DNA from: Halorussus amylolyticus
Lineage (GTDB): Archaea; Halobacteriota; Halobacteria; Halobacteriales; Haladaptataceae
DNA: 64,000 nucleotides
Assembly: GCF_004143485.2 (NCBI RefSeq)
Contig: NZ_RXOB02000022.1
Location: forward strand, 1-64,000
Reading direction: 5' to 3'
Part shown: piece by piece, positions 20,179 to 22,235 of the stretch
How positions within the stretch are numbered: the stretch's first letter is position 1
How the letters are laid out: every line of letters begins with the position of its first letter
The notes under the pieces: generated by a model
The model's input: only the letters and a program-made list of their open reading frames with translations
The model's database searches: none
Told to the model about the DNA's origin: nothing
Made by a program: the position numbers and the translations under genes

Positions 20179-21489
20179 ATGTCATACCATACGAGACGGC
20201 GTGACGTGTTGAAAGGTGTCGGCGTTGCTGGCGCAGTCGGCCTCGCTGGCTGTATGAACGGTGGCGGTGGCGGCGGTGGCGGCGACAGCGGCCCCGACAT
20301 GCTGACGGTCATCGGGTACCCCGAGAGCGGGATTCAGCTTTTCCGCGACTATTACAGCGAGTCCGACGGCTCCGAGGACATCCTCATCCCCGACGGCCTG
20401 CAGGACGCCTCGCTCCCCGGGCAGGTCGGCAACGACATGGAGAACGTCACGGGTACCGCACCCGCGGCGGGCGGCCCGAATCAGGAAGCGTTCGAATCGC
20501 TGTTCGAAGACGCGTACGACTCCAGCCCCGGCGTGTTCACGTCCCAGTCGTACGACTCGGCGGCCGCGCTCATCCTCGCCAACGTCGCCGCGGGCGAGAA
20601 CAGCGGCGAGGCCATCAGAGACCAACTCCGCCGAATCGCGAATCCGGACGGCGACGAGTACGGTCCCGACCAACTCGTAGACGCGGTCGAAGCGGTCGCG
20701 AACGGCGACAACATCAACTATCAGGGCGCGTCGAGCGCCGTGAACTTCGACGAGAACGGCGACCCCGCGTCCGCGGCGTACTCCATCTGGGAGTTCGGCG
20801 GCCAGGACGCCGAGTCGGTCGAGATAGACGAGACCCAGACCTTCGAGGGCGAGAACCCCGACGGGTCGGGCGACATGGCCGACGAGTCGCCCGGCGGCAC
20901 TGGGCGGGAAGTGGATCTCGGGATTCTCCTGCCGGAGACGGGCGACCTCGCTTCGACCGGCCAGCCCATGATTCGGGCGGCGGAACTGCCAGCACAGCAG
21001 GTCAACGATTCGGACCTCGACATCGAGGTCAACGCCCAGTTCGAGGACACGAACACCTCGCCAGACCAGGGTGTCAGCGGTGCCGAGTCGCTCATCAGTT
21101 CGGGCGTCCCGGCAATCTGTGGCACGGCGTCGTCGGGCGTCAACGTTCCCGTCTGCGAGGAGGCGCTGATTCCGAACGAGGTCGTCGGCTGTTCGCCGTC
21201 CAGTACCGCGCTCTCGGTCACGAACCTCGAAGATGACGGCTACATCTTCCGGACCGCACCGAGCGACCAGTTGCAGGGTCGGGTCATGGCGCAGGTCGCC
21301 GCCGAGCGACTCGAAGCCGAGACCGCGGCGGTGCTGTACGTCAACAACGACTACGGTCAGCAGCTCTCTGAGCGGTTCAGCGAAGTGTTCGAGGACGAGT
21401 TCGACGGCGAAGTGTACGACCAAATCAGCTTCAACATCGGCGAATCGTCGTACAGCTCCGTCGTTCAGGACGCGCTTTCGAGCGGATAA
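20179..21489 (+). CDS. lipoprotein substrate-binding protein (LivJ/Peripla_BP_6 type) with its two halves in swapped order
   Basis: 436-residue ABC-type solute receptor. Seen: Arg-rich signal with lipobox LAGC (Cys25) and a glycine-rich linker, so it is membrane-anchored outside the cell. From residue 39 the chain begins with the segment normally found in the second half of this family (PDMLTVIGYPESGIQLFRDYY ... TFEG). From residue 245 comes the normal first half (VDLGILLPETGDLASTG ... SYSSVVQDALSSG), then the stop. The normal order would join ALSSG to PDMLTV. The junctions share a 5-bp AGCGG. I infer a circular permutation, natural or from assembly. No permease or ATPase genes are nearby. 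Confidence 0.85.
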   Translation: MSYHTRRRDVLKGVGVAGAVGLAGCMNGGGGGGGGDSGPDMLTVIGYPESGIQLFRDYYSESDGSEDILIPDGLQDASLPGQVGNDMENVTGTAPAAGGPNQEAFESLFEDAYDSSPGVFTSQSYDSAAALILANVAAGENSGEAIRDQLRRIANPDGDEYGPDQLVDAVEAVANGDNINYQGASSAVNFDENGDPASAAYSIWEFGGQDAESVEIDETQTFEGENPDGSGDMADESPGGTGREVDLGILLPETGDLASTGQPMIRAAELPAQQVNDSDLDIEVNAQFEDTNTSPDQGVSGAESLISSGVPAICGTASSGVNVPVCEEALIPNEVVGCSPSSTALSVTNLEDDGYIFRTAPSDQLQGRVMAQVAAERLEAETAAVLYVNNDYGQQLSERFSEVFEDEFDGEVYDQISFNIGESSYSSVVQDALSSG

Positions 21490-21650
21490 TCGTCCGCTTC
21501 GGACTCCTCGGAGTCCACGGCGCGCGGCGTCGCCTCTCACCGCGATTTTCTTCTAGACTCGATGGCGCGTAGCGCCGCCGAGAATTCGGGCCGCGAGTCG
21601 AAGTCTCGAAAGCGCAACCACGAAACCCCCGCGCCCCGAACCACGAGTCG

Positions 21651-22235
21651 ATGTACGAAGTCGAAGTGAAGGTCCGCGCCGACCACGACGACGTCCGAGC
21701 GCGTCTCGCCGACCTCGGCGCAGACCCCGTGAACCGCGTGATGCAGTCCGACATTTACTACGACGCCCCGCACCGCGACTTCGCCGAGACCGACGAGGCC
21801 CTCCGGGTGCGCGAGGAGACCGACGCCGACAGCGGCGAGACCGTCACCCGACTCACCTACAAAGGCCCGCTCGTGGAAGCCGAGTCGAAGACCCGCCGAG
21901 AGGTCGAAACCGCGGTCGGCGACGCCGATACGGCGGCCGACATACTCGACGCGCTCGGCTTCGAGGCCGCCGCAACCGTCGAGAAGGAGCGCCAGCGGTT
22001 CGCGCTCAACGGCTACACCGTCACCCTCGACTCGGTGGCGGGACTCGGCGAGTTCGTGGAGGTTGAGACTGAAGCCGAGGGGGGATCAGAGGCCGAGACT
22101 GCCGGGGAGTCGGTCGCGAACGCGCGCGAGGGCGCGTTCGCGGTCCTGCGCGACCTCGACCTCGACCCCGGCGACCAGATTCGGACCTCGTACCTCGGTC
22201 TCCTGCTGGCCGAGGAGTCGGACGGAACTGAATGA
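21651..22235 (+). CDS. cyaB: CYTH-domain protein (CyaB-like adenylate cyclase or triphosphatase)
   Basis: 194-residue triphosphate tunnel enzyme. Seen: signature ExExK as YEVEVKV at the N-terminus, then acidic and basic tunnel strands (SDIYYDAP, LRVREE, RLTYKGP, TVTLDSVAGLGEFVEVE). Family members act as class IV adenylate cyclases or as thiamine/inorganic triphosphatases; sequence alone cannot decide. Stand-alone gene between the binding protein and metK. Confidence 0.88.
   Translation: MYEVEVKVRADHDDVRARLADLGADPVNRVMQSDIYYDAPHRDFAETDEALRVREETDADSGETVTRLTYKGPLVEAESKTRREVETAVGDADTAADILDALGFEAAATVEKERQRFALNGYTVTLDSVAGLGEFVEVETEAEGGSEAETAGESVANAREGAFAVLRDLDLDPGDQIRTSYLGLLLAEESDGTE

Follow-up and report, generated by a model that had tools for sequence, protein, structure and literature searches.

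A circularly permuted LivJ-type solute-binding lipoprotein and the recurrence of its half order at one haloarchaeal locus

Most natural circular permutants come to light only between distant proteins and long after they arose, at which stage neither the route nor the benefit of the permutation is open to testing. Among type I solute-binding proteins (SBPs), the closest described system is TpMglB-2 (Tp0684), a naturally permuted, glucose-binding, membrane-tethered lipoprotein of an ABC importer, in which the first three strands of the N lobe have moved to the C-terminus and both termini lie in the N lobe (PMC4990184). TpMglB-2 retains ligand binding and closure and has an extra (fourth) inter-lobe crossover; together with its relatives it was proposed as a 'Type Ic / Cluster Bc' ligand-binding protein, and its authors speculated that the permutation relates to membrane anchoring (PMC4990184). 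A second permutation family, linking glycine-betaine-binding proteins to molybdate-binding proteins and CysB, was found by structure search using CPSARST (PMC2395249). A search of the open-licence full-text literature turned up no description of permuted SBPs from haloarchaea or of the PF13458 family.

The window analysed here is a stretch of 64,000 nucleotides from Halorussus amylolyticus (contig NZ_RXOB02000022.1, positions 1 to 64,000), in which the reading frame at 20179-21489 (+) is open and encodes 436 amino acids. A sequence-only reading of this DNA had described the product as a LivJ-type lipoprotein with its halves swapped, in an open frame where signal and lipobox are followed by the second half and the usual mature start appears only later. 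A profile search of the organism's own genome bore this out, with PF13458 positions 188-311 matched at 20284-20637 and positions 2-190 at 20911-21486. Since these swapped matches were made to the general PF13458 model, the permutation is visible without any haloarchaeal relative. The family score was well above threshold (E 2.8e-32, 113 bits against a cut-off of 31.7) and the usual N-to-C order of the profile was absent, identifying the protein as a permuted PF13458 variant. With A and B denoting the first and second halves of the fold, the gene is laid out as follows.

20179..21489, + strand: circularly permuted solute-binding lipoprotein, in the order signal, B, linker, A; the same order occurs at dozens of haloarchaeal loci
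20179..20253, + strand: predicted Tat signal peptide (RRRDVLKG) and lipobox GLAGC, from sequence; present in most relatives
20254..20292, + strand: Gly-rich low-complexity spacer between lipid anchor and folded domain, from sequence
20293..20880, + strand: segment B, the second half of the type I SBP fold, now first, from PF13458 and half-profile matches
20881..20898, + strand: linker core ESPGGT, from the old C-terminus to the old N-terminus, from junction comparison
20899..21486, + strand: segment A, the first half of the type I SBP fold, now last and ending ALSSG-stop, from PF13458 and phmmer

The predicted lipidation site is Cys25 (20251-20253), at the end of GLAGC. The match to the PF10518 TAT_signal profile was weak (E=0.013, under its cut-off); the twin arginine and LAGC form a functional-looking export signal, and we regard the product as a putative Tat-exported archaeal lipoprotein. 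Segment B covers residues 39-234, starts with PDMLTVIGYPESG and corresponds to profile positions after about 188, and segment A covers about residues 241-436, with the usual mature start GREVDLGILLPETGDLAS at about residue 241 and the usual mature N-terminus GREVDLGILLPETG. Sequence matches in the PDB covered only the A half well (4n0q, phmmer, residues 244-433, E 2.3e-15). The Gly-rich spacer holds the same position in all three half orders described below and varies in length. Two details of the junctions did not survive comparison intact. The family junction had been given as ALSSG running directly into PDMLTV, which is close but inexact, as normal-order relatives carry 1-3 extra residues (for example SALSGE-PEMLVV and NATADD-PDILIV). 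The AGCGG said to be shared by the two breakpoints is present; however, it has no bearing on origin and was rejected as a recombination scar, because it spans only five letters of GC-rich DNA and the permutation long predates the window sequence.

To see how the order is distributed, a scan of one genome per species was used, which returned 78 loci, and the order at each was assigned by aligning the two halves separately against the locus. Most loci carried B-A in one frame, a set of loci (L068-L079) carried A-B, and two (L065 and L066) carried a third order. The B-A order was common to dozens of haloarchaeal genera, as one open frame in dozens of independent assemblies, and was found on the complete chromosomes of Halostella pelagica (CP040678, L014), Halospeciosus flavus (CP122312, L035) and Haladaptatus pallidirubidus (CP085301, L051). 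Halves misjoined by an assembler, or by a recent local rearrangement, could have produced a broken gene, and misassembly had been a worry of the sequence-only reading itself. No observation in support of this was found: many independent genomes and complete chromosomes share the order, no long repeats and no remnants of a recent duplication occur around the window gene, and the low dN/dS and confident fold prediction reported below are at odds with a broken product. We therefore rejected misassembly, to which we give practically no credence.

Wider sampling yielded 208 distinct genes, 147 with B-A, 59 with A-B and 2 with the third order (A2-B-linker-A1); this sampling was steered, and the counts are not frequencies. 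In one draw across the phylum, counted by hand among the matches listed, a full-span B-A gene was present in 34 of the 64 haloarchaeal genomes with a match, about half, and in none of the 48 matching genomes from orders other than Halobacteriales. A permuted binding protein with an export signal had been expected to be a rare natural case, which understates a gene carried by this share of the matches listed, with at least three origins and one cut site. Permuted and normal orders differ between orthologues up to about 73% identical. Thus, the homologues exist in two orders related by joined old termini and new termini, and the gene encodes a natural circular permutant.

We also examined selection and predicted structure. 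The window gene compared with that of Halorussus marinus gave a dN/dS of about 0.15-0.17, and values within the third order were 0.05-0.14. AlphaFold2 modelled the window protein with a pLDDT of 91.5 and a pTM of 0.88, confidence being lowest around the linker (pLDDT 76-79), and the third-order protein with a pLDDT of 90.8 and a pTM of 0.90. Both permuted forms were thus confidently predicted as type I SBPs, the outcome for which the sequence-only reading had proposed structure prediction as a check, and the model of the window protein has a two-lobe alpha/beta fold like that of LivJ. The best PDB matches of this model were Leu-binding/LivJ structures, with about half aligned at a time; Foldseek against normal-order LivJ structures aligned about 195 columns (TM 0.47 of target), a half-length alignment that reflects a sequential aligner applied to a permutant. 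The third-order model aligned with 3td9 over 338 columns (TM 0.75). The motifs GYP, DG, SP..T and YGQ, which we take to be the pocket positions known from LivJ, showed little or no variation across 73 permuted sequences. This conservation of pocket-region motifs argues for amino-acid-like ligands, and the permuted SBP probably binds amino acids. With purifying selection and confident models, the protein looks functional as a working SBP.

With few exceptions among the fetched loci, the SBP gene was convergent with LivF-LivG-LivM-LivH, whichever the half order, and all three orders (B-A, A-B and A2-B-A1) adjoin LivFGMH. The window locus differs in this respect: phosphoglycerate kinase (PGK) lies upstream of the gene and CYTH and methionine adenosyltransferase genes lie downstream, with LivFGMH absent locally. 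This arrangement would fit a change of partner, in which the permuted protein serves a sensor or another extracellular role and not an ABC importer. Against this, LivFGMH is adjacent in nearly all relatives, other Halorussus genomes (L105, L106) have PGK, the permuted SBP and LivFGMH together, and an orthologous LivHMGF operon survives elsewhere in the organism's own genome (contig C4, about 86.3-90.4 kb, L104), with 81-91% identity to L105. We consider a change of partner very unlikely. In Halorussus amylolyticus the SBP gene (within window 20179-22235) is thus separated from its LivHMGF operon, which lies on another contig, and relatives keep them together. Other permeases of the genome (C6, C8 and C13:40k) are probably not partners, as by sequence and neighbours they look to be of another, BMP/nucleoside-like type. 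A phosphoglycerate kinase gene also adjoins the SBP-transporter cassette, at either end, in several distant haloarchaea (L256, L278-L281), an association conserved without an obvious functional reason.

To determine how often the B-A order arose, a gene tree was built with both halves put into canonical order. Relatives from other classes, 35-43% identical and all of normal order, were used as the outgroup, replacing roots on the very long L200/L101 branches, which were unreliable. Because these relatives outside the order are all normal and root the tree so, the normal order is ancestral. On the careful and rooted trees the B-A genes fell into five clades (P1-P5), plus the third order. P1 is large and contains the window gene, with the third order nested inside it as sister of L055. 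The remaining clades lie among normal-order genes, namely P2 (Halorubrum and relatives, about 22 genomes), P3 (about 30 genomes, mostly one genus), P4 (L255/L256) and P5 (L254). One P2-type permuted gene (G169:C2:2081066-2083858) looks interrupted, with a 368-aa frame and the rest about 1.4 kb further on, with TGA. AU tests, whose p-values are somewhat weakened since the groups were defined after a first tree, rejected a single clade of all permuted genes (p=0.0045), P1+P2 (p=0.012; 0.009 in a repeat), P1+P3 (p=0.013) and P2+P3+P4+P5 (p=0.002). Not rejected were P3+P4+P5 as one clade (p=0.148), P4+P5 (p=0.298) and P3+P5 (p=0.147), so P3, P4 and P5 could share one origin. These rejections support at least three origins, with five on the best tree.

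The same pattern could be mimicked by one ancient permutation, with the extra origins produced by gene conversion or recombination with normal-order copies, or by reversals. Both orders do coexist in some genomes (for example G158, G253 and G046), and the SBP-LivFGMH cassette moves. One instance is G448 (L281), which has B-A at the same chromosomal place where its congeners G447, G449 and G365 have A-B. Compared with the congeners (L281 against L278, L279 and L282), its flanks are 92-95% identical and its promoter and signal peptide align closely, whereas the mature SBP is only 59-65% identical, LivHM is also much diverged, and the B half of the SBP is nearer to the normal-order gene of G306 (76%). 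In G448, transfer probably replaced the SBP and its transporter genes as a cassette, one of the joints falling within or close to the Gly-rich spacer. Being repetitive, and occupying an equivalent position in all the genes compared, this spacer is a plausible recombination site. A single permutation is contradicted, however, not only by its rejection in the AU test. Trees of A only and of B only agree on placement, and linkers differ between clades and are not alignable as one ancestor: the P1 context is EGENPDG.GP.AD-..PGG-.RE, P2 has FGNELTEEDRGATAADPVGVD, P3 has DIPQPEPSGSGSD, and P4 and P5 are different again. The cut site, in contrast, is identical across the permuted clades, lying between the helix ..ALS and the strand PD.L.V.GYP that follows it. 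We regard one ancient event as unlikely; the evidence supports three or more separate origins of the B-A order in a single orthologous gene of haloarchaea, each with the same cut.

The third order reads A(42-194)-B-A(2-42), with its cut after beta1-alpha1, and its genes (L065:3875-5335 and L066:3899-5347, the latter equal to G309:C7:20398-21738) adjoin the same type of LivFGMH operon. Two metagenome assemblies supplied L065 and L066, whose sequences are distinct, so this order was assembled twice; no isolate with it was found among the sampled genomes. The linker is that of P1 (EGDNPDGAGPSAEETPGSDPGRTVELGILLP), and the tree joins the third order to L055 with full support; this indicates descent from the P1 architecture or its fused precursor. 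The A-B junction of the third order (SALSGD-PDGLFVV) resembles that of normal genes. The third order may be either a re-permutation of B-A or a second trimming of a shared fused precursor. As to the route in general, tandem duplication followed by trimming had been put forward from the window sequence and is a plausible origin, as is fusion followed by trimming; no fused A-B-A-B frame was seen among the 208 genes, where tandem copies occur unfused only.

Taken together, we hold with good confidence that the gene encodes a working, circularly permuted PF13458 type I SBP of a LivFGMH-type importer, with amino acids as probable ligands, and that at least three permutations at the same cut and one re-cut occurred. 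In this reading, the old termini are joined by the linker and the new termini lie between a helix and the next strand, presumably in the middle of lobe 2. This same cut was made on at least three separate occasions in a gene of normal ancestral order, plausibly through tandem duplication or fusion and then trimming, with possible help from the repeats of the Gly-rich spacer. Within the largest clade, one descendant would have been permuted again, after beta1-alpha1 of lobe 1. The A/B cut (about 188/343 of the profile in the window protein) presumably lies in lobe 2 by LivJ numbering, and a cut there would shift the two termini, and with them the lipid tether, out of lobe 1 and into lobe 2. The membrane tether would thus shift between lobes with the pocket the same, return to lobe 1 in the third order, and the linker may add a fourth crossing between the lobes.

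Relocation of the tether is possibly beneficial; that permutation recurs neutrally, at a site that tolerates it, deserves equal weight as a reading. Under the latter, permutants arise again and again by duplication and truncation, and where the cut falls between helix and strand on a lobe's outer side the product folds and is kept without bringing any advantage. A breakpoint that is the same every time fits a site of structural tolerance, tandem copies do occur in Haladaptatus, and several permuted members have no lipobox cysteine, namely Halorussus marinus L020, the paralogue L002 and one Haladaptatus copy; tethering therefore fails to account for all cases. That the permutation recurred within a single family and has long been conserved in about half of the carriers among the matches listed weighs against neutrality, and recurrence alone cannot tell tolerance from advantage; we give neutrality a substantial chance, somewhat short of even. 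Our more tentative proposal, which we consider possible and still doubtful, is that five or more permutations at one cut and one elsewhere gave orders that are interchangeable beside the importer and are selected by the lobe that bears the tether. If true, the adaptive value of circular permutation would have been put to the test several times over, by nature, at this one locus. Two of the members named above (L020:3983-5311 and L002, G000:C4:152480-153757) have a Tat-like signal and are possibly soluble; L002 is Halorussus amylolyticus' own 58% paralogue, is itself permuted and lies a few kb from another LivMH pair. In Haladaptatus (L051, L052 and L054) two permuted SBP genes stand in tandem, one copy being that without the lipobox cysteine.

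Normal, permuted (at least three origins) and third-order orthologues stand at one syntenic locus, many of their hosts are culturable and some belong to the same genus. The locus is thus a natural experiment on why proteins become circularly permuted, in which tolerated versus selected permutation, including the anchoring suggested for TpMglB-2 (PMC4990184), becomes directly testable. It also carries a warning, as profile annotation gives half-matches for a common haloarchaeal transporter component.

Compared with LivJ/LivK-type proteins (PF13458; PDB 3td9, 4gnr, 4n0q and 2lbp), the window protein has the same halves, pocket-region motifs, partner genes and predicted fold, and differs in order, B-linker-A in place of A-B. 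The family found by CPSARST is alike in being a circular permutation among periplasmic binding proteins (PMC2395249). That family, however, has a type II fold and a deep structural relation at under 24% identity, whereas the orthologues here are up to about 73% identical. TpMglB-2 is the nearest parallel, likewise a type I SBP that was circularly permuted in nature and serves an ABC importer as a tethered lipoprotein. It belongs to the bacterial glucose/galactose-binding MglB family and is cut within the N lobe, whereas the haloarchaeal gene belongs to PF13458 and is presumably cut inside lobe 2; the window protein, cut mid-profile and in lobe 2 by LivJ numbering, falls outside the 'Type Ic' definition. 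The third order, in which only beta1-alpha1 has moved, is nearer in style to TpMglB-2 than is the B-A order. In contrast to TpMglB-2, the haloarchaeal permutation has recurred, and a single syntenic locus carries the normal order in some genomes and the permuted one in others. Thus, a permuted type I SBP is known from TpMglB-2, and what is new here is the family, the archaeal setting, the recurrence, the shared locus and the second cut.
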